From positions 2,094,777 to 2,158,776 of the forward strand of contig VLTH01000002.1 in the NCBI GenBank assembly GCA_008125075.1: DNA of 64,000 nt. The letters are read 5' to 3'. The position numbers were made by a program, and so were the translations under genes. This DNA is from Acetivibrio alkalicellulosi (GTDB lineage: Bacteria > Bacillota > Clostridia > Acetivibrionales > Acetivibrionaceae). How positions within the stretch are numbered: the first letter of the stretch is position 1; every line of letters starts with the position of its first letter. Below the pieces are notes generated by a model. That model saw only the letters and a list, made by a program, of their open reading frames with translations. It searched no databases and was not told where the DNA came from. Shown piece after piece: positions 3,086-39,200 of this stretch.

Positions 3086-5935
3086 CTATAATACCCTTAG
3101 TTGAGGCATGGGTTGTAAAATTTTCTTAAGAAAACTTCCTGTATATGATCCTTCAACTTTAATTATCTCTTCTGGTGTACCTTGAGCAACTAAATATCCT
3201 CCTTTATTTCCACCTTCAGGACCTAAGTCAACAATGTAATCTGATGTCTTTATAACATCTAAATTATGTTCGATTACTACAACAGAATTACCCCCATCAA
3301 CTAATCTTTGAAGAATATCTATTAACTTGTGTACATCAGCTGTATGAAGTCCAGTTGTTGGTTCATCAAGTATATACATGGTTTTTCCAGTGCTTCTTTT
3401 AGAAAGCTCTGTTGCAAGCTTTACACGTTGTGCTTCTCCTCCTGAAAGAGTTGTTGATGGTTGTCCCACTTTAATATATCCTAGACCTACATCGTGTAAT
3501 GTCTGAAGTTTCCTTTGTATCTTAGGAATATTCTTGAAAAATTCAAGAGCATCTTCAACAGTCATATCAAGTATTTCAGCAATGCTTTTACCCTTATATC
3601 TCACTTCAAGTGTCTCTCTGTTATATCTTTTGCCCTTACATACTTCGCAGGGAACGTAGACATCTGGCAAGAAATGCATTTCGATTTTAATTATTCCATC
3701 TCCTCTGCATGCTTCACAACGGCCACCCTTCACGTTAAAACTAAATCTCCCTGCTTTATATCCTCTAACTTTTGATTCTGTAGTACCAGAAAATATATCT
3801 CTAATAATATCAAATACACCTGTATATGTTCCAGGATTAGACCTTGGTGTACGACCTATAGGAGATTGATCTATATCAATAACCTTGTCTAGATGCTCAA
3901 GACCTTTAATATAATCATGATTTCCTGGTGTCATTTTAGCCTTATTTAATTCATTTGCAAGCTTTTTATAAAGAATCTCATTTACAAAAGAACTTTTACC
4001 TGACCCAGATACTCCTGTTATACAAGTAAATACTCCTAAAGGTATCTTAATGTCAATATTTTTTAAATTGTTTTCTTTAGCCCCAACTACTTCAATCCAT
4101 TTTCCATTTTGCTTACGCCTTTTTTCTGGAATTTCAATATATTTTCTACCACTTAGATATTGACCTGTAACAGAATCCGGACTCTGCTTTATTTCTTCAA
4201 TAGTCCCCTTTGCAACAATTTGTCCACCATGTACTCCTGCTCCTGGACCTAAATCTATAATGTAATCAGATGCATACATTGTATCTTCATCATGTTCTAC
4301 AACTATTAAAGTGTTTCCTAAGTCTCTCATTCTTTTGAGGGTCTTTAAAAGCCTCTCGTTATCCCTTTGGTGGAGTCCAATACTTGGTTCATCTAATATA
4401 TATAACACACCCATAAGACCCGAGCCTATTTGAGTAGCAAGCCTTATCCTTTGAGCTTCACCGCCTGAAAGGGTTCCTGCAGATCTTGATAAAGTAAGAT
4501 AATCTAATCCTACATCAACTAAAAATCCCAATCTCTCATTTATTTCCTTTAAAATCTGATGAGCTATTAATCTATGTCTTTCTGATATATTAATGTTCTC
4601 AAAAAAGTCCTTAACTTCCCCTACTGGTATAGAACATACTTCATGTATATTTTTAGCTCCAACGGTAACTGATAAACTCTCTTTTTTTAATCTGGCACCA
4701 TTACATTCTGAACATGAGTTATTGCTCATAAATGCCTCATAATACTGTTTCATACCATCAGACTGGGTTTCCTTATAACGCCTTTCTAGGCTATTTATTA
4801 CACCTTCAAAGGCGGCCATAAAAGTTCCTTTTCCATATTCCTTCTCATACTTTACAGTTATCTTTTGTCCCTTTGTTCCATAAAGTATAATATCTAAAAT
4901 ATGTGACGGAAGTTCTTCAATTGGAGTTGATACACTGAAATTATAATGCTTTGCTAAAGCATTTATATACATTCTTGCATAACCATCCTCTTTTCCTATA
5001 TTCCATCCACCAACACTTATAGCTCCAGCTTCTAAAGACAGTTTTTTGTTAGGTATCACCATATCAGGGTCAATCTTTAGCAAGGTTCCTAATCCACTGC
5101 AATTAGGACATGCCCCAAAGGGATTGTTAAAGGAAAACATCCTTGGAGCAAGTTCTTCCATACTTATTCCACAATCATTACAGGCAAAATTCTGGCTAAA
5201 AAGAATTTCTTCTTTACCAATTACATCAACAATAAGAATTCCACTACTCAAATTAAGCACAGTTTCTATGGAATCAGCAAGTCTTTTGTGTATATCAGCT
5301 CTTACAACTATCCTGTCTACTACTATTTCAATGTTATGCTTTTTATTTTTGTCAAGGTTAATAGGATCATTTATATCCATAACCTGTCCATCTACTCTGA
5401 TCCTTACGTATCCTCCCTTTTTTATATCTTCTAAAAGTTTGTGATATTCTCCTTTTCTCCCCCTTACTACTGGAGCCAAAAGTTGTATTTTTGTTCCCTC
5501 TTCAAGTTCCATAATGTGGTCAACCATTTGATCTACAGTTTGCTGTGAAATCACCTTACCACATGAAGGACAATGAGGTATTCCTATTCTTGAGTACAAA
5601 AGCCTTAAATAATCATATATTTCTGTTACTGTACCCACTGTAGATCTAGGATTTCTACTGGTAGTTTTCTGATCAATTGATATTGCCGGGGATAATCCTT
5701 CTATATAATCTACGTCAGGTTTCTCCATTTGTCCCAAAAACTGTCTTGCATATGCAGACAAAGACTCAACATAACGTCTTTGTCCTTCAGCATAAATAGT
5801 ATCAAATGCTAACGATGACTTTCCCGAGCCACTAAGTCCGGTAATAACAACTAATTTATCCCTTGGAATTTCAACATTTATGTTTTTAAGATTGTGCTCC
5901 CTTGCACCTTTTATTAAAATTTTGTCCCTTATCAT
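3086..5935 (-). CDS. uvrA: UvrABC excinuclease subunit A
   Basis: 949 residues, the usual UvrA length. UvrA is the dimeric ABC-type ATPase that finds bulky DNA lesions and loads UvrB in nucleotide excision repair. Visible features are two ABC halves, each with a Walker A (GLSGSGKSS near residue 33, GVSGSGKSS near 640), two LSGGEAQR signature motifs, Walker B ILDEPS and [10 protein letters not shown], and CxxC zinc-binding pairs (CPSC, CNDC/CPNC, CEAC/CEVC). The ATG start has a weak AGGTG upstream. A LexA-type box overlaps the -35 about 90 bp upstream. Unusually for this group, uvrB is not adjacent: an opposite-strand block of about 3 kb lies between them. Confidence 0.98.
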
Positions 5936-5999: not shown

Positions 6000-6038
6000 A
6001 TTATATCAGATATATTTAAAAAATCAAACATAAGTTCG
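6000..6038 (-). promoter_or_regulatory. uvrA promoter with overlapping LexA (SOS) box
   Basis: On the minus strand CGAACTTATGTTTG (6038-6025) fits the Gram-positive LexA consensus CGAAC-N4-GTTyG. It overlaps a -35 TTTGAT (6028-6023) placed exactly 17 bp from a -10 TATAAT (6005-6000). The arrangement predicts LexA repression released by DNA damage. Confidence 0.82.
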
Positions 6039-9377: not shown

Positions 9378-11357
9378 TCACTCAAGTTTATTTTTTATTT
9401 CATTTATCTTATCCCTTAGCTCTGCTGCTCTTTCAAATTGCAAATTAGCTGCTGCTTCTTTCATTTCCTTTGATAATTTATCTACAAGTTTCAATGCTGC
9501 ATCTTTATCCATTTCTTCCACATCACCATAAACAGAGTATTTAACTTCATCCTCTGCCACTTTTGTTGCTTCAATTACGTCACGAATTCCCTTCTCAATA
9601 CTCCTTGGAGTAATGCCATGAAGTTGATTATACTCCACTTGTATTTTTCTTCGTCTGTTTGTTTCACTTATGGCTTTTCTCATTGACTCAGTTACTACAT
9701 CGGCATACATTATAACTTTACCTTCAACATTTCTTGCAGCCCTTCCAATAGTTTGAATAAGTGATGTCTCTGAACGTAGAAATCCTTCCTTATCTGCATC
9801 AAGTATAGTTACAAGAGATACCTCTGGAAGATCTAACCCTTCTCTTAAGAGATTTATCCCAACTAACACATCAAATACACCAAGACGCAGCTCTCTTATT
9901 ATTTCCATTCTCTCAATAGTATCTATGTCTGAGTGTAGATACTTAACCTTAAAATCCATCTCATTTAAATAGTTAGTAAGATCCTCGGCCATCTTTTTTG
10001 TAAGTGTTGTTACAAGCACCCTGTGATTTTTTTCAATTCTTTCGCCTATTTCTCCAATAAGATCATCAATCTGTCCTTTAACAGGCTTTACAATCACCTC
10101 AGGATCAATAAGTCCAGTTGGCCTTATTATCTGCTCAACTTCTTGCTTAGAATTTGCTTTTTCATATTTTGCAGGTGTTGCACTAACAAATACAATCTGA
10201 TTTATTCGCTCTTCAAATTCACTAAACTTAAGTGGTCTATTGTCATATGCCGAAGGTAGCCGGAATCCATACTCAACTAGAGACTGTTTTCTAGATCTAT
10301 CACCATTATACATTGCACCTACTTGTGGAATAGTAACATGTGATTCATCAATTACCATTAAGAAATCCTTTGGAAAATAATCAATAAGGGTAAAAGGAGA
10401 GCTCCCAGGTTTCCTGCCACTTATGTGTCTGGAGTAATTTTCTATACCTTGACAAAAACCAACTTCTTGCATCATTTCAATATCATATCTTGTCCTTTGT
10501 TCAAGCCTTTGTGCCTCTAAAAGCTTTTCTTCATCCTTTAGCTCTTTTAATCTCTCTTCGAGCTCTTGTTCAATTGATATAATAGCCCTTTCCATCTTAG
10601 CTTTTGTTGTAGCATAGTGGGATGCTGGAAAAATAGCTGCATGAGATCTTACTCCTGTTATTTCTCCTGTAAGAGAGGCAACCTCAGTAATTCTCTCAAT
10701 TTCATCTCCAAAAAACTCAACTCTTAATACTTCTTCTGAAGAAGATGCTGGAAAAATCTCCAGAACATCTCCCCTAACTCTGAATCTTCCTCTTCTAAAA
10801 TCTATATCATTTCTGTCATACTGAATATCTACAAGTTTTCTTATTATTTCATCTCTGTCCTTTTGCATCCCAGGTCTTAAAGAAAGCATAAGTTCAGTAT
10901 AATCCTCTGGATCTCCCAAACCATATATGCAAGAAACGCTGGCTACAATTATCACATCTCTTCTTTCTAGAATAGCCGCCGTTGCAGAGTGCCTTAGCTT
11001 ATCTATCTCGTCATTTATTGATGAGTCCTTTTCAATATAGGTATCGGTAGAAGGAATATATGCCTCTGGTTGATAGTAATCATAATAACTAACAAAATAC
11101 TCAACACAGTTATTTGGAAAAAACTCTTTAAATTCACTACAAAGCTGTGCAGCTAAAGTTTTATTATGGGCTATCACTAATGTGGGTTTTTGAACCCTTT
11201 CAATAACATTTGCCATTGTAAATGTTTTTCCTGATCCAGTAACCCCTAAAAGAGTTTGTTCCTTTAATCCTATATTTAGTCCTTCAACCAATTTATCTAT
11301 AGCCTTTGGTTGATCTCCACAAGGCTTATAATCTGATGCTATTTTAAATTCAGGCAT
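9378..11357 (-). CDS. uvrB: UvrABC excinuclease subunit B
   Basis: 659 residues, normal UvrB length. UvrB is the damage-verifying helicase-like subunit that receives DNA from UvrA and recruits UvrC. Visible features are Walker [13 protein letters not shown] (about residues 39-50), the beta-hairpin region [12 protein letters not shown], the DESH box [11 protein letters not shown], helicase motifs [15 protein letters not shown] and QTIGRAARN, and a C-terminal UVR coiled coil ([20 protein letters not shown]). The ATG has AGGAGGG upstream. A perfect palindromic LexA-type box covers the -35. The gene ends immediately before a sigma-factor remnant in the same frame. Confidence 0.98.
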
Positions 11358-11393: not shown

Positions 11394-11430
11394 ATTATAC
11401 CACAAATTTTTATTTACAAACATATGTTTG
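11394..11430 (-). promoter_or_regulatory. uvrB promoter with overlapping LexA (SOS) box
   Basis: CAAACATATGTTTG (11417-11430) is a perfect 14-bp palindrome fitting the LexA pattern C(G/A)AAC-N4-GTT(C/T)G. Its half on the minus strand supplies a -35 (TGTTTG) exactly 17 bp from a -10 TATAAT (11399-11394). Confidence 0.85.
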
Positions 11431-11470
11431 GGAATTTAAATTTTTTAACTTTGTTCCAAAACTTCTAGTT

Positions 11471-11503
11471 AAAAAAAGATGGACATTTTGTCCATCTTTT
11501 TTT
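11471..11503 (-). terminator. Terminator hairpin after the topoisomerase A gene
   Basis: A perfect 15-bp stem AAAAAAAGATGGACA / TGTCCATCTTTTTTT with a 3-base loop, with A/T tracts on both sides, so it can act in both directions. The stop codon of the minus-strand topoisomerase gene overlaps the stem. Confidence 0.85.
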
Positions 11504-13685
11504 ATACACCTATCTTTAACTGATAGTCTTCCTCATCTTCATCCTTTAAGTAACAACCTACAGCAGGTATGTTTTTTGTCCTGTAGTAATCAAGATCCTT
11601 AAATCCAACCTCTTCTATACTTTTAACTTTTGTCATTACACTTTCCTTTTTAGCTTTAAGCACCTGCACTCCCTGGGAATCTCTAGTTGACTTTGAATTA
11701 ATATTTGAAGTATTAAAAATCAATACTTTATCAAGGCTACTAAATGCAACCAATTCCTTGTCCTCTAAAATATGTGATATATAAACAAGTTTTGATAAAT
11801 CACAGTATCCATTGGCAAGTTTTTTTCTATTAGTTTTTGTGGCGTAACTGCTTAAATCAATTTTAGCCATTTTACCATTTTCAAAGGCAAATAACATATA
11901 TCCCTTGTATTCATCTGTTGCAACCATATATATTATACTCTCTCCCTCTTCTAATCCTAAAAGGTTTGCAAGATATAATCCTAAGCTGCTGGCTTTACAG
12001 TCTTCAAGCTCAAATACCTTTATTTTGTATACAGTATGTTTATCTGAAAACAATAATAAATCAGTTTTGTTACGAGTTTCCAGTTCTTGAATTATTTCAT
12101 CATCATCCTTTAGTTTGTGCTCAGGATTACTTCTCAAGGAAGTCAAAGGTATTTTCTTCATGTAATTGTGGTCTGTTAAAAATAATTTTAAATTATAGTC
12201 TTCTATAAGATGCTCATGGGTTATCTCTTCAACATGCTCTTCATGTATTATTTCAGTTTTTCTGGCTGTGCCATACTTCTTAGATACATCGTTTAACTGT
12301 TTGACTATTATTTTCTTTATCTTTTTTTCGCTAACATAAGTTTCTTTTAGATCTGCAATGTCATTTTGAAGGTCTTCAATCTCACTTACACGATTTAAAA
12401 TATACTCCTTATTTAAATTTCGGAGCTTTATTTCAGCAACAAACTCTGCCTGTACCTGATCTATGCTAAAACCATCCATTAAGTTAGGTACTACAAGTGC
12501 ATCCTCTTCAGTATTTCTTATTATTCTAATTGCTTTATCAATATCTAAAAGAATCTTCTCTAAACCAAGAAGCAAATGTAATTTATCCGACTTCTTTTTT
12601 ATATCGTAGGCAATTTGTCTTTTTATACAGTTAATACGAAAGATAATCCACTCTTTTAATATGTCCTTTATTCCCATAACTCTAGGACGTCCATTAATTA
12701 AAATATTAAAATTACAACTAAAACTATCCTGAAGAGGTGTAAACTTAAATAGTTTATTCATTAAAGCATCTGGATCGGTATTTTTTTTGATGTCAAATGT
12801 AATTTTAAGCCCCTTTAAATCAGTTTCATCCCTCACATCTGAAACATCTTTTATTTTATTATTCTTAACAAGATCAATAACTGCATCTATAACAGATTCT
12901 GTAGTTGTTGTATATGGAATCTCATATATTTCTATACAGTTATTATCCTTGTCAAACCTATATTTTGCTCTGAGCTTAAACCCACCTCTTCCAGTATTGT
13001 ATATCTGCTGCATTTCTTTTTCGTTGTATATTAGCTGTCCTCCTGAGGATAAATCAGGTGCTTTTAAGTAATCAATAATATTTATATCCTCATTGTTTAT
13101 ATATCCAATTGTAGCATCGCATACTTCCTTTAGGTTAAAGCTGCAAATATTACTTGCCATCCCTACAGCTATTCCCTGATTGGAACTAACCAAAATATTA
13201 GGGTATGTGGAAGGAAGAAGAACAGGTTCTTTCATTGTGCCATCATAGTTGTCAATAAAGTCAACAGTGTTTTTGTCAAGGTCTCTAAATAATTCCTCAC
13301 ATATTTTATCAAGCTTAACCTCTGTATAACGCGGGGCTGCAAATCTCATCTCTCTAGAATACTGCTTACCAAAATTCCCTTTTGAATCTATATAGGGGTG
13401 TAAAAGGGCATTATTACCCCTTGTCAATCTGACTAAAGTCTCATATATTGCCATGTCACCATGAGGATTAAGCTTCATAGTCTGTCCAACTACATTTGCA
13501 GATTTTGTCCTTCCACCTGTCAAAAGCCCCATTTTATACATAGTAAAAAGAAGTTTTCTATGTGATGGTTTCAAACCGTCTATCTCAGGAATTGCCCTTG
13601 ATACAATAACGCTCATAGCATAAGGCATATAGTTTTTTTCAAGGGTATCTACTATTTTTTGTTCAATTATATTACTTGACTGCAT
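11502..13685 (-). CDS. Type II topoisomerase subunit A, non-canonical GyrA/ParC family
   Basis: About 727 residues from the second ATG (13685), which is 7 nt from AGGTG; the first ATG at 13691 is only 1 nt away. This is the DNA-cleaving subunit of a type II topoisomerase. It shows the winged-helix region RAIPEIDGLKPSHRKLLF, the quinolone-region equivalent LNPHGDMAIYETLVRL, the catalytic tyrosine in AAPRYTEVKL, and GIAVGMASNI. The canonical serine and aspartate of the quinolone region are Met and Glu here. The C-terminal half is charged and diverged, and I see no GyrA box (QRRGGRG type), which argues for a topoisomerase IV-like enzyme rather than housekeeping gyrase. It lies 44 bp downstream of its B subunit, apparently in one LexA-controlled unit. 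Confidence 0.9.
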   Translation of the reverse strand: MQSSNIIEQKIVDTLEKNYMPYAMSVIVSRAIPEIDGLKPSHRKLLFTMYKMGLLTGGRTKSANVVGQTMKLNPHGDMAIYETLVRLTRGNNALLHPYIDSKGNFGKQYSREMRFAAPRYTEVKLDKICEELFRDLDKNTVDFIDNYDGTMKEPVLLPSTYPNILVSSNQGIAVGMASNICSFNLKEVCDATIGYINNEDINIIDYLKAPDLSSGGQLIYNEKEMQQIYNTGRGGFKLRAKYRFDKDNNCIEIYEIPYTTTTESVIDAVIDLVKNNKIKDVSDVRDETDLKGLKITFDIKKNTDPDALMNKLFKFTPLQDSFSCNFNILINGRPRVMGIKDILKEWIIFRINCIKRQIAYDIKKKSDKLHLLLGLEKILLDIDKAIRIIRNTEEDALVVPNLMDGFSIDQVQAEFVAEIKLRNLNKEYILNRVSEIEDLQNDIADLKETYVSEKKIKKIIVKQLNDVSKKYGTARKTEIIHEEHVEEITHEHLIEDYNLKLFLTDHNYMKKIPLTSLRSNPEHKLKDDDEIIQELETRNKTDLLLFSDKHTVYKIKVFELEDCKASSLGLYLANLLGLEEGESIIYMVATDEYKGYMLFAFENGKMAKIDLSSYATKTNRKKLANGYCDLSKLVYISHILEDKELVAFSSLDKVLIFNTSNINSKSTRDSQGVQVLKAKKESVMTKVKSIEEVGFKDLDYYRTKNIPAVGCYLKDEDEEDYQLKIGV

Positions 13686-13729
13686 ATTCATTCACCTTTC
13701 TTTATGATAAGAGGACAAGTTATTGTCCC

Positions 13730-15709
13730 TTAACTTACATCTACCATATCCATGTACTTATGCCCATTTTCTTCTATGTGTAGCTTTCTTCCCTGAAGGT
13801 TATCACCTAAAAGAATATCAAAGTATTGTATCGTTCTTTCAATTTCATCAGGTACAACTTTAATAAGCTTTCTTGTCATTGGGTTCATGGTTGTTTGCCA
13901 CATCATCTCAGGCTCATTTTCTCCAAGGCCTTTAGAACGCTGAAGTGAGTACTTTCCGTTTAATTTAGATAATATATCATTTTTTTCCTTATCGGAATAA
14001 GCAAAAAGTGTTTTATTTTTTGTAGTTATTTCAAATAGTGGTGATTCAGCAATAAAAACTTTCCCTGTATCAATTAGTGTAGGTACCAGTCTATAAAGCA
14101 TTGCTAGTATTAAAGTCCTTATTTGAAACCCATCTACATCTGCATCTGTACATATTATTATTTTATTCCACTTAAGGTTATTAATATCAAAAGTGTGTAG
14201 ATCTTTATTGTACTTTGTCTTTATCTCAACTCCACATCCTAGCACCTTTAACAAATCTACAATTATTTCATTTTTAAAAATACTATCATACTCAGCTTTT
14301 AAACAATTTAGTATCTTTCCTCTAACTGGAATTATTGCCTGGAACTCTGCATCTCTTCCAAGCTTACAAGCACCTAAAGCAGAATCTCCCTCTACAATAT
14401 ATAGTTCTCTTCTGCTTAAGTCCTTCGTTCTACAATCTACAAACTTTTTTACCCTATTTGATATATCAACGTTACCACTTAATTTCTTTTTTATATTTAT
14501 TCTTGTCTTTTCAGCAGTTTCCCTACTTCTCTTGTTAACAAGAATTTGCTCAGCAATTTTATCACTTTCAAGCTTATTTTCAATAAAATATATTTCTAAT
14601 TGCTGTTTTAAAAACTCTGTCATAGCATCTTGAATAAACTTATTGGTTATTGACTTTTTAGTTTGATTTTCATAACTAGTTTCAGTTGAAAAAGAGTTTG
14701 TAACTAGTATAAAACTGTCCTGTATGTCTTGAAAAGTAATTTTAGCCTCATCCTTATTGTATTTTCCTAAGGATTTGATATATTTATCTATCTCATATAT
14801 AAAGGCATTTTTAACTGCCCTATCAGGAGATCCCCCATGCTCTAAAAAACTAGAATTATGGTAATACTCAAGTAAGTTTACCTCATTACTAAAGCAAAAA
14901 GCTATCTGCATTTTCACCTTATATTCAGGCTTGTCCTCCCTGTCCCTTCCTCTTGTTGTCGCCTCATAAAACTGAATCTCTGTAAACCCTTTGTCTCCAC
15001 ATACTTCTTTTATATAGTCAACTATTCCATTTTCATAACAGTATTCAAATGTCTGTTCTGACTCCTCATCAAACAACATAAATTTCAATCCTGCATTTAC
15101 AACAGCTTGTTTTTTTAATATATTTGTATAGTACTGGAGAGATATGTTTATATCAGTAAAAACCTCCAGATCAGGTCTCCACTTGATAATTGTTCCTGTC
15201 TCCCCACTACTATGCTTTTCTTTCTTAAGTCCTCCTATATTTTCACCTTTCTCAAAGTGAAGAGAGAACTTAAAACCATCCCTTAAAACAGAAACATCCA
15301 TATATTCAGAGCTATACTGAGTTGCACAGCTTCCCAAACCATTTAATCCAAGACTGAATTCATAATTCTCCCCAGTATTGTTTTTATATTTTCCTCCTGC
15401 ATATAACTCACAAAAAACAAGTTCCCAGTTATAGCGTTTTTCGTTTTCATTATAGTCAAGAGGAATGCCTCGTCCATAATCTCTCACTGTAACAGAAAAA
15501 TCCTTATGCCTTATAACCTCAATAACTTTTCCATACCCCTCTCGGGCTTCATCTATAGAATTAGAAAGTATTTCAAAAACAGAGTGTTGGCAGCCCTCAA
15601 TGCCATCTGAACCAAAGATAACAGATGGTCTAAGCCTTACCCTGTCAGCACCCTTTAAAGATGTTATACTTTCATTCCCATATTTCACTGTTTTGTTTTG
15701 TCTCACCAT
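13730..15709 (-). CDS. Type II topoisomerase subunit B, non-canonical GyrB/ParE family
   Basis: 659 residues. This is the ATPase/Toprim subunit partnering the A subunit downstream. Visible motifs are the GHKL ATPase boxes EILSNSIDEAREGYG, RDYGRGIP and LGLNGLGSCATQYSS (canonical GGLHGVG is altered), Toprim YIVEGDSALG and CTDADVDGFQIRTL (usually DADVDGAHI), and SLQRSKGLGENEPEMMW. The Mg-binding acids EGDSA and DxD are intact, so it should be active, but the sequence is clearly off the main GyrB/ParE lines. Such second topoisomerase pairs are known in clostridia; the job is probably decatenation or damage-related. A LexA-type box lies 77 bp upstream. Confidence 0.92.
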   Translation of the reverse strand: MVRQNKTVKYGNESITSLKGADRVRLRPSVIFGSDGIEGCQHSVFEILSNSIDEAREGYGKVIEVIRHKDFSVTVRDYGRGIPLDYNENEKRYNWELVFCELYAGGKYKNNTGENYEFSLGLNGLGSCATQYSSEYMDVSVLRDGFKFSLHFEKGENIGGLKKEKHSSGETGTIIKWRPDLEVFTDINISLQYYTNILKKQAVVNAGLKFMLFDEESEQTFEYCYENGIVDYIKEVCGDKGFTEIQFYEATTRGRDREDKPEYKVKMQIAFCFSNEVNLLEYYHNSSFLEHGGSPDRAVKNAFIYEIDKYIKSLGKYNKDEAKITFQDIQDSFILVTNSFSTETSYENQTKKSITNKFIQDAMTEFLKQQLEIYFIENKLESDKIAEQILVNKRSRETAEKTRINIKKKLSGNVDISNRVKKFVDCRTKDLSRRELYIVEGDSALGACKLGRDAEFQAIIPVRGKILNCLKAEYDSIFKNEIIVDLLKVLGCGVEIKTKYNKDLHTFDINNLKWNKIIICTDADVDGFQIRTLILAMLYRLVPTLIDTGKVFIAESPLFEITTKNKTLFAYSDKEKNDILSKLNGKYSLQRSKGLGENEPEMMWQTTMNPMTRKLIKVVPDEIERTIQYFDILLGDNLQGRKLHIEENGHKYMDMVDVS

Positions 15710-16025
15710 ATCAATTTAGCCACTCCCATTACATTTTTATACCTTTTGCATCTTACACTTATATCATCTAAAATCCAGCTTATATCAAACCTATGTTCGT
15801 GTCAAGATATTGCCTTAATAAAAAATTATATTGTAAAATTTCTTTTTGTTATTGCTAAAATACACATTTTATAATATAATATACTTCCAGACAAAAACCA
15901 ATTACTTACGTTACTTCTCATAAATTCTTTATTCACATGATATATTTATACGCAAGTCGTATTCTATAAAAGATTATCCAGTAACCCAAAATAGTAATAA
16001 CATATTTTAAAAGGAGTGATATAAT
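15710..16025. other. Divergent intergenic region
   Basis: No credible gene. It contains the LexA-type box for the minus-strand topoisomerase operon and the upstream region of the TTG-started gene at 16026. Nothing else stands out beyond AT-rich sequence. Confidence 0.6.
15786..15799 (-). promoter_or_regulatory. LexA-type box upstream of the topoisomerase operon
   Basis: On the minus strand CGAACATAGGTTTG (15799-15786) fits CGAAC-N4-GTTyG. It overlaps a possible -35 TTTGAT with AT-rich -10 candidates (TGATAT/TATAAG) 17-20 bp downstream. It is 77 bp before the start codon of the B subunit. Confidence 0.72.
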
Positions 16026-36253: not shown

Positions 36254-39200
36254 TCACTTTTCGATCCATGCCTTAATAATTCGTATTAATGTATCATAAT
36301 CTACAGGTTTAGATATATAGTCATTTGCTCCTGCCTCAATACATTTTTGTTTATCTTTTTTTAATGACTTTGCTGTAAGAGCTATAACAGGTATACTTTT
36401 TAGGTCTTTATCTTTTCGAATTTCTTTTATAGTTTCATATCCATTCATTACAGGCATCATTATATCCATTAATACTAAATCTATTTTATTATTACGCATA
36501 ATATTAAGAGCAGTCTTTCCATTATCCGCATCAATAATATTAGCACCATAATCTTCTAAGGCTGAAGCTAAAACAAATAGATTTCTCGTATCATCATCCA
36601 CAATTAAAATAGTTTTTTTATCTAGACTTAATGCACATTCTTTTTTCATCTTTGAAAACACATTATATTCCCTTTGATATACGTCCCTTGCTTTATGTAA
36701 AAATAGAGTAACTTCATCAAGCAATCTTTCCTCAGAATTAGCAGTCTTAATTATAACCCTATCAGAATACTTTCTTATGATCTTTTCCTGATCCATACTT
36801 AAATCTTTGCCTGTATATATAATAACAGGTGTTTTTATATTCTTTTCATTTATATATTTACATACATTAATTCCATCTCCTTCTTTTATTTCTAAGTCTA
36901 AGATCACTGCATCATAAATTGTTTTTTCTAGTTCAAATTTAGCTTGTTTTTCTGTTTCAACTACCTTTATGTTTATATCCTCACTCTCTATAAGTTCTCT
37001 TATGCACTCTTGCTGAGTTATATTATCCTCAACAACTAAAAGACATTTAGTGCTCTTTTCACTAAACGCTAACATTTTAAGTATTGCTTCTTTAATCTCT
37101 TCATCTTTTAAAGGCTTTTGATTATATCCTAATGCTCCCATTCTTTTAAGCTCATTATCCTCATCACAAACTGAAATTATATGTATGGGTATTCGACGTA
37201 GCTCAACTGTACTTTTAATTTCCCTTAATACTTCTACTCCGCTTATATCAGGAAGTTTTAAATCTAGTAAAATACCATCTACCTTATGGTTTCTTACTTT
37301 ACTAAGTCCTTCTTTTCCAGTGTATGCCACCAGAGTTTCAACCCCTAAATCTTCATTTACTTTTTTTATATAATTGACAAATTCTCTGTTGTCTTCAATT
37401 AATAAAATAACTTTTGTGTTTTTCAAATTTTTAGTTTTATCATTTTTCAGCTCATGTTTAAATAATAATTGATCATCACAATTATTACTTAAAAGTGCAT
37501 TAGGTAAATAAAACGAAAATGTACTTCCTTTTCCCTCTTTACTTAAAACCTTAATTTCTCCTTTCATATTATGTGCCAATTTTTTACTAATGGACAATCC
37601 AAGTCCTGTGCCCCCATATTTTCTTGAAATGGATCCATCGCCTTGTTGAAACTCTTCAAAAATAACCGAAAGCTTTTCTTCTGAAATTCCTATTCCCGTA
37701 TCTATTACTGAAAAAAGTACTCCTTTTTCTGTGTCTGATGTTATATTGAGTGTAACTGATCCATTGTGAGTAAACTTAAAGGCATTTGATAGAAAATTTC
37801 TTAGTATTTGTAATATTCTATTCTTATCTCCCTTAATTCTTGAATTTAGATAATCCTCAAGTATAAATTCAATATTTTTATGTTTTGCATTGCTGTCAAA
37901 CATCTGTTTGAGGTTTTCAATTAGCTCACCAGAGTTAAATGTAGTAACATTTAATTCTATCTTACCTGACTCAATTTTTGAATGATCCAAAATATCATTT
38001 ATTAGCCTTAATAGTTCCTGCCCAGCGTTGTATATAACATTTATTTTTTCCTTATCTTTTTCACACAGATCCCCGATTGGTTTTCTATTCAACATTTTTG
38101 CAAGTAAAATAATTGAATTTAAAGGAGTTCGAAGTTCATGGGACATGTTAGCTAAAAACTCTGACTTGTATTTGCTTGCCATTTCTAGTTCTTCAGTTCT
38201 CTTTATAAGCTCTTCTTTTGACCTTTCTAGATCTGAATTCTTATTGTTCAATAGATGTGACTGCTCTTCTAAGAGCTGTTGTTGTTCTTCTAATTGAGAG
38301 TTTGTTTGTTGTAGTTCCTCACTTTGTTGTTGAAGGAGTTGCTGTTGTTCCTCTAACTGGGAGTTTGTCTGCTGTAGTTCTTCTGTCTGTTGCTGAAGCA
38401 GTCTTTGCTGTTCTTCTAATACATGGTTAGCTTCTTTTAATTCATCTGCCTTCTCTCTCAACTCAATCTGAGCCTCTTCTGAAATTTTTAAAAGGTTACT
38501 AATCCTGTGATTTTGAATTGCTGAGTATAGATAACTAGAAATTATTTTCCCTGCATCTTCTAAAAAATCCTGCTTTAAAATTGTAAAGGGTTCAAATGAA
38601 GAAACTTCTATTACACCATAAAGCTCTTCCTCATATGTAAGAGGTAAGGCATATATATTTAAAGGCGCTTCGCACAAGGTACCAGTATTAATAGTAGCTT
38701 CCTGCTTTCTTATATTTCTTAATAGTATAGGCTTTTTTTCAAGAGCAGTTTGTCCCACAATACCCTCTCCAAGAGCATATTTATTTGCAAGCTTATCTCC
38801 TTCTGTAAAGGCATACGATGCGTTTATAGACAAGTATTCATCTTCACTGTTATAAAGGTACAAAATACCCCGCCCTGCATTTAAAAACCTTGAGACAAAA
38901 CTTATAGCTTTAGATGTGAGTTCAGAAATAGGCTTGTTTCCAGACAATTCATCATTTAAATTGTTACAACCATCTTTTAACCAGAACTGTTCTCTTAATT
39001 TTATAATAAGTTTATTATAATAGTCTAACATCTTTGAAATTTCATTTTTACCAGGTATGCTTACCTCAGATAATTCTCCTGTATTAGCACCAGCAAACAT
39101 TGCTTCCTGAAGGGTATTAACCTGTTTTAAAATACTATTAATTATTATAAAGAATAAAACAAAGGTTATTATTAAAAGAGCACTTAAAAAAACAGATAAC

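Follow-up and report, generated by a model that had tools for sequence, protein, structure and literature searches.

Introduction

In Bacillus subtilis, parEC is a LexA target. In Staphylococcus aureus, parEC is likewise placed under LexA, with the box CGAACGTACGTTTG, and gyrase is said not to be LexA-regulated in the available part of that report (PMC11442139). For parCE of Bacteroidetes, the accessible text describes an SOS-like site and induction by mitomycin C, and its authors consider topoisomerases a possible recurring component of the SOS response (PMC8565304). In Streptomyces venezuelae, parE, which encodes a topoisomerase IV subunit, is listed as a LexA target in the accessible sections (PMC9380542). 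A DAP-seq and motif study of Clostridium thermocellum DSM 1313, as far as its text is available, includes Clo1313_1916 and Clo1313_1918 (excinuclease A and B) and the “DNA gyrase B” Clo1313_1922 in the LexA regulon; all three are conserved targets in its footprint scan, and since the LexA protein precipitated, binding was left unconfirmed in a separate assay (PMC8457756).

LexA-type control having been reported in C. thermocellum, S. aureus, Bacteroidetes, and Streptomyces, the regulatory headline of the present work is not new. The original prediction for the locus studied here, that LexA controls a second topoisomerase, is supported below, but such control had already been described in the latter three. 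Elsewhere, the words topoisomerase and gyrase are absent from the available text of the C. difficile LexA paper (PMC4234289) and from that on C. acetobutylicum, whose LexA passages name no topoisomerase (PMC3828012). None of the sought terms is present in PMC3998124, and the accessible parts of PMC12448304 and PMC4023603 contain nothing on topoisomerase control by LexA. The literature searches, which covered a minority of the subscription journals, brought up no paper that deals with this enzyme lineage or treats it as a second topoisomerase under LexA. Not found in print were the way the second topoisomerase contrasts with gyrase, the promoter geometry, the boxes on both topoisomerase lineages, and a nearly exclusive alternative topoisomerase lineage with phage kinship.

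The reading favored here, at a probability of roughly 0.8 and on sequence grounds, is that the topoisomerase pair would be the sole non-gyrase type IIA enzyme of its genome, topoisomerase IV-like, and that its operon would be repressed by LexA and induced by damage together with UvrA and UvrB.

Results and Discussion

Organization of the Locus

The window, i.e., the whole 64 kb stretch of Acetivibrio alkalicellulosi DNA that was analyzed, belongs to a 5.3 Mb clostridial genome. Its minus strand carries, in this order, a topoisomerase B-A operon, uvrB, and uvrA, and an exact CRAAC-N4-GTTYG box stands ahead of each unit. The B subunit of the second type IIA topoisomerase (13730–15709, minus strand) consists of 659 residues with ATPase and TOPRIM regions (Pfam DNA_gyraseB, DNA_gyraseB_C, and Toprim), and the named loci near it include those of Herbivorax sp. 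(87%) and Pseudobacteroides (81%). The A subunit of the same enzyme (11502–13691, minus strand), located 38 nt 3′ of B, is the DNA cleavage subunit of 729 residues (Pfam DNA_topoisoIV). Both uvrB (9378–11357, minus strand) and uvrA (3086–5935, minus strand) match NCBIfam equivalog models over cut-off. The boxes lie at 15786–15799 (CGAACATAGGTTTG on the gene strand), 11417–11430, and 6025–6038, i.e., 76, 59, and 89 nt from the ORF starts of topoisomerase B, uvrB, and uvrA, respectively. All three had been predicted from the window, and they are real, exact, and correctly positioned; they are very probably LexA operators.

The order topoB-topoA-uvrB-uvrA recurs in genome G013 with a box before each unit: that of uvrB is the same as in the window, that of uvrA is exact, and that of the topoisomerase has one mismatch. 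From this order and that of the Clo1313 locus tags, Clo1313_1922 is taken as the probable orthologue of the window’s B subunit.

With up to one mismatch, the window holds four matches; shuffled sequences hold 3.37 on average and 42 of 100 reach four, so this count is unremarkable, yet all four matches are exact. Window counts alone were thus too weak a basis for judgment. The fourth exact match (37897–37910), not mentioned in the original prediction, lies inside a long minus-strand ORF and is probably due to chance. At 45–2720, an 891-residue ORF contains near-identical internal repeats of about 229 residues, with a partial third copy, as judged by eye.

Conservation of the Topoisomerase Box

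The order to which the genome belongs was sampled with 58 genomes. Six were left out: G050, G053, and G057 show no copy of the pair, and in G027, G034, and G052 the pair is cut by contig ends. Fifty-one regions were fetched in addition to the window, and two were dropped (one without a B subunit on the contig, the other with just 92 nt upstream), which gave 50 readable second-topoisomerase promoters. Within 300 nt upstream, the box was found with at most one mismatch in 39 of the 50 and exactly in 23, where dinucleotide (Markov) shuffles gave 1.2 and 0.02, respectively. In the same sample, it occurred in 0 of 19 gyrA and 0 of 20 gyrB upstream regions. A B subunit was sought beside gyrA in the fetched stretches and none was there; these stretches therefore served as the gyrA control, and the gyrB regions were fetched separately. 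The difference between 39/50 and 0/39 corresponds to a Fisher p of 2 × 10−15, with relatedness ignored. More widely, 51 of 115 homologues are boxed (117 distinct ones, minus two with short upstream regions). A preliminary test on 250 nt upstream of 78 of 80 named loci gave 7 exact boxes and 20 with at most one mismatch (0.1 and 1.65 expected). The comparison of orthologous promoters thus came out as anticipated, though 11 of the 50 lack the box.

The unboxed promoters belong to G004–G006, which are of the window’s own genus, to four of six f7 members, one of three f10 members, one f15 member, and two f16 members. LexA is present in seven of these genomes (G004–G006 and the four of f7), and the f10 promoter keeps TTGACA with a two-mismatch box. 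The boxed f7 promoter of G039 is without TTGAC, and its box may be a chance match. In three boxed draft genomes (G011, G043, and G045), no LexA match was found.

Promoter Geometry

Upstream of the topoisomerase operon, a perfect −35 element, TTGACA (15805–15800, minus strand), abuts the box (15799–15786) on its 5′ side, and a weak candidate −10 element, TAAGCT (15782–15777, minus strand), follows at a spacing of 17 nt; many relatives have AATAAT near this position. Of the 39 boxed promoters of the order, 36 have TTGAC no more than 9 nt before the box (the background rate is 0.02 per 9-mer), and when the boxed homologues are aligned on the box, cTTGACA immediately precedes it in most of them. 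Since TTGAC directly precedes the box and the spacer measures 17 nt, the operator fills the spacer between −35 and −10; it does not lie on the −35 itself. In some more distant members (L044, L063, L069, and L082), the order is reversed, with the box upstream of TTGAC, and G007, the nearest relative, has its box at 260 nt upstream.

The proposal that two of the window’s boxes sit exactly on a −35 followed by a 17 bp spacer and TATAAT is correct in part. TATAAT is indeed present in both uvr promoters, but the overlap at uvrA is loose, as the right half of the box enters a −35 that is weak whether read as TTTGAT (17 nt) or as TTGATT (16 nt), and uvrB, with an extended −10, offers a poor hexamer, TGTTTG, at 17 nt.

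The fixed geometry bears on the idea that the palindrome before the topoisomerase is a relic or due to chance, located beside a strong −35 and free of LexA control. Such an origin would agree with the 11 boxless relatives and with the ordinary count in the window at one mismatch. It accounts poorly for exact boxes in 23 of 50 promoters, for their absence from all 39 gyrase regions, for this geometry, and for the LexA regulon reported for C. thermocellum, and we consider it improbable.

LexA and Its Candidate Sites in the Genome

A genome-wide LexA motif scan, proposed with the original prediction, gave a favorable result: exact CRAAC-N4-GTTYG sites number 19, and those of the reversed pattern 8, which corresponds to an expectation of about 0.1 per 64 kb. 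Of the 19, seven fall within ORFs, which is about the control number, and the other 12 precede genes or ORFs. The box-bearing genes include uvrA, uvrB, the topoisomerase, and lexA with a divergent yneA-type gene. Further exact boxes stand ahead of a radical-SAM repair protein (TIGR03916), an ssb-like gene, a precorrin-6A reductase gene, and the ATG of a Pol IV-type polymerase, though the last falls within a longer reading that starts at TTG. A box with one mismatch, AGAAC-N4-GTTCG, is found 21 nt upstream of recA. The genome’s LexA scores over the cut-off of TIGR00498, and the box CGAACATTAGTTTG lies 93 nt upstream of lexA; its half-sites are identical to those of the topoisomerase operator. 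Across the order, a LexA match was obtained in 53 of 58 genomes, and an exact box precedes lexA at all 30 loci fetched. The whole set resembles the usual SOS regulon of a Gram-positive bacterium, with the topoisomerase pair included.

Another exact box, CGAACGTATGTTCG, lies a few nucleotides 5′ of the longest ORF of an integron-integrase-like tyrosine recombinase (box at L010:1501–1514, genome C2:801956–801969; ORF at L010:1522–2616), which scores over the cut-off of NF040815 and under that of TIGR02249. SOS control has been reported for integron integrases of Vibrionaceae in the available part of one paper (PMC3323433). The remaining three exact boxes stand beside a repeat, ahead of ORFs without Pfam hits. 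This repeat, GAAATAGGTTAAT...AGGGAT, has four copies (C1:661322, C2:803083, C2:1092138, and C2:1113910; L003, L011, and L012). In three of them CGAAC-N4-GTTCG follows 3 nt later beside the ORFs, and the fourth is without an exact box. Possibly, the copies are attC-like sites with a palindrome that resembles a LexA box.

The identity of the half-sites at the topoisomerase operon and at lexA also weighs against a second alternative, in which the palindrome would bind another repressor with a LexA-like site (e.g., a phage-type or XRE protein) and would have been kept from phage relatives. The kinship of the enzyme with phage topoisomerases, described below, and the varying placement of the box between lineages lend this some appeal. 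Yet the same motif precedes uvrA and uvrB, and the LexA regulon published for C. thermocellum includes the probable orthologue of B, so we give another repressor little credence. LexA remains the preferred candidate, and the scan, the orthologous promoters, and the C. thermocellum regulon together support the placement of a second topoisomerase in the SOS regulon.

Identity of the Enzyme

The Pfam domains, the catalytic tyrosine, and the TOPRIM region identify the pair as a type IIA topoisomerase. The B subunit retains the TOPRIM motifs EGDSA and DADVDG as well as QTK, and EGDSA and DADVDG are seen in the five B subunits shown; its HATPase_c match (24.6 bits) falls slightly under the cut-off of 26.4. 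The A subunit retains the catalytic Arg-Tyr, and all 17 family members that were aligned have the Tyr122 equivalent. At E 1e-5, B matches five NCBIfam models and A matches ten, in every case under the cut-off. For the gyrase models, A reaches 547.6 bits against a cut-off of 877 (TIGR01063) and B reaches 472.1 against 882.4 (TIGR01059). For the topoisomerase IV models, A reaches 411.9 against 813.25 (TIGR01061) and 359 against 1475 (NF010586), cut-offs that many canonical clostridial ParC proteins also fail, and B reaches 412.6 against 899.95 for the parE-type model TIGR01058.

A tree built from 52 A subunits gives the family its own clade, with an SH-aLRT support of 100 and a long stem, separate from GyrA (90) and from the 20 rows of canonical ParC (89); the tree is unrooted and designates no sister group. 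E. coli ParC stands alone on a long branch. The epithet “atypical” in the original prediction is therefore apt, given that all matched models score under cut-off and A has its own clade, and the same two results rule out a canonical ParEC.

PF00521 proteins number two in the genome, namely, the window’s A subunit and GyrA. The GyrA box (QRRGGKG) is absent from the seven family members displayed, including that of the window, and is present in the genome’s own GyrA. As the box is missing and the catalytic residues are kept, a relaxing and decatenating enzyme may be expected, and from the missing box together with the copy number we infer the role of a decatenase. That the pair is instead the cell’s DNA gyrase, as the name given to its probable orthologue implies (PMC8457756), with SOS raising supercoiling, is the least probable view and was rejected, because, although the best NCBIfam matches of B are gyrase models, the scores lie far under their cut-offs, a separate GyrA (830 residues, L020) and GyrB (646-residue frame) are encoded elsewhere, and the pair has no GyrA box and a clade separate from GyrA.

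A quinolone pocket unlike that of gyrase was also considered and dropped, since positions 83/87 are Met/Glu both in the pair and in the genome’s own GyrA. The segment of the A subunit (11502–13691) that follows these positions has strongly diverged from gyrase, for which reason the quinolone response is not predictable.

Distribution in Clostridia and the Canonical parE

The family was found in 123 of 243 genomes sampled from the class. Its unbroken copies score at least 819 bits at an identity of at least 52%, and the next homologues score about 401. Two strong TIGR01061 matches, i.e., GyrA and a ParC-like protein, were obtained in 48 genomes; this screen overlooks some ParC carriers, such as G183, G257, and G269, which are visible with NF010586. 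By the same screen, only 3 of the 123 family genomes also have a ParC-like protein (Fisher p 5 × 10−13, from hand-compiled lists and with relatedness ignored). The class genomes outside both lists show neither the family nor a ParC-like match. In a sample of the phylum, the family was present at E 1e-125 or better in 14 of 299 genomes, eight of them outside the window’s class.

For the canonical parE, 35 upstream regions of B subunits were compared; their genomes have ParC-type matches and were chosen largely among the highest-ranking ones. An exact core GAAC-N4-GTTY occurs in 21 of the 35 (0.48 expected). In f19, f49, f57, and f68, it occurs in 12 of 12 regions, always 16–26 nt before parE; in f48, it occurs in 8 of 11, 16–163 nt before parE; and in genomes with an over-cut-off ParC, it occurs in one of four. 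No core box was present in eight regions from four further genomes, each of which has two B subunits with ParE unassigned. As these eight regions indicate, a LexA-type box on the canonical parE is frequent but not universal. Its placement is unlike that in the window’s lineage, which suggests that the two topoisomerase lineages acquired LexA control separately.

Kinship with Phage Topoisomerases

Tblastn searches with the A subunit found Geobacillus virus E3 (54% identity), Bacillus phage vB_BcoS-136 (53%), and FADO (51%), over 98% of the length; with the B subunit, the identity in E3 is 60%. B and A are adjacent in the phages. In E3 (L382:2030–6133), the annotation joins them into a single product that spans an in-frame stop, with peptide evidence noted in the record. 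Matches ranking above these named phages are bacterial replicons recorded as plasmids and unannotated “Bacteriophage sp.” contigs of possibly bacterial origin. One such contig, L387, groups within the clostridial clade and may itself be bacterial, and the “phage” rows L390 and L393, which fall among GyrA, are probably mislabeled bacterial DNA.

In the best trees, the clostridial clade stands beside the Bacillus/Geobacillus phages with support values of 85, 93, and 95.6, and further phage or plasmid enzymes (AM9, GR1, and pBS32) branch outside this combined group. By this phylogeny and the model scores, the pair is assigned to a deep lineage common to large Bacillus/Geobacillus phages that is neither gyrase nor canonical ParEC. 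On the basis of the trees, a phage origin of the clostridial enzyme is tentatively favored. In an AU test on the 46 rows that remained after 15 were dropped, one clade of all six mobile rows was not rejected (p 0.117).

A bolder and tentative proposal, which we hold to be possible but rather doubtful, is that about half of the class Clostridia exchanged topoisomerase IV for a topoisomerase captured from a large phage and that the captured operon came under LexA independently of the canonical parEC. If so, LexA control would track the job of second topoisomerase rather than the gene lineage. Should the favored reading hold, a second type II topoisomerase under SOS control would be a recurrent trait of Clostridia that survives an exchange of the enzyme, which would point to decatenation as a part of damage repair rather than an accident of one operon. 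The family would also make it possible to test how a phage-related enzyme fills a chromosomal housekeeping role, and a common clostridial enzyme would be set apart from gyrase, with which annotation has mixed up its orthologue.

Proposed Role in the Damage Response

The pair would work as topoisomerase IV does, by ATP-dependent relaxation and decatenation. LexA would occupy the operator between −35 and −10 and repress the operon; a block of RNA polymerase is suggested by this position. Upon DNA damage, RecA-triggered cleavage of LexA would allow the enzyme to rise alongside UvrA and UvrB, and the extra enzyme might help to part sister chromosomes that are recombined or stalled and interlinked. 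Both LexA binding and induction by damage are predicted here from the operator and its promoter.

Comparison with Known Systems

The C. thermocellum LexA regulon likewise comprises recA, uvrA, uvrB, and a YneA-like gene. In the available text, the study labels the probable orthologue gyrase B and does not discuss a role as second topoisomerase, the promoter geometry, or the lineage (PMC8457756). Like the window, S. aureus has a second type IIA topoisomerase operon, parEC, with a LexA box, as seen in the accessible part of that report (PMC11442139). Its enzyme is named topoisomerase IV (ParE and ParC), whereas the window’s pair belongs to another lineage, by a tree that holds no S. aureus ParC. 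The Bacteroidetes differ from the window in a non-canonical LexA, the motif CTAA-N5-TTAG, and a topoisomerase IV assigned by annotation, according to the text available (PMC8565304). S. venezuelae differs in being an actinobacterium and in that the parE described in the accessible sections is an additional one (PMC9380542). The topoisomerases of E3, vB_BcoS-136, and FADO share the lineage of the window’s pair and its adjacent B and A genes, but they are encoded by phages.
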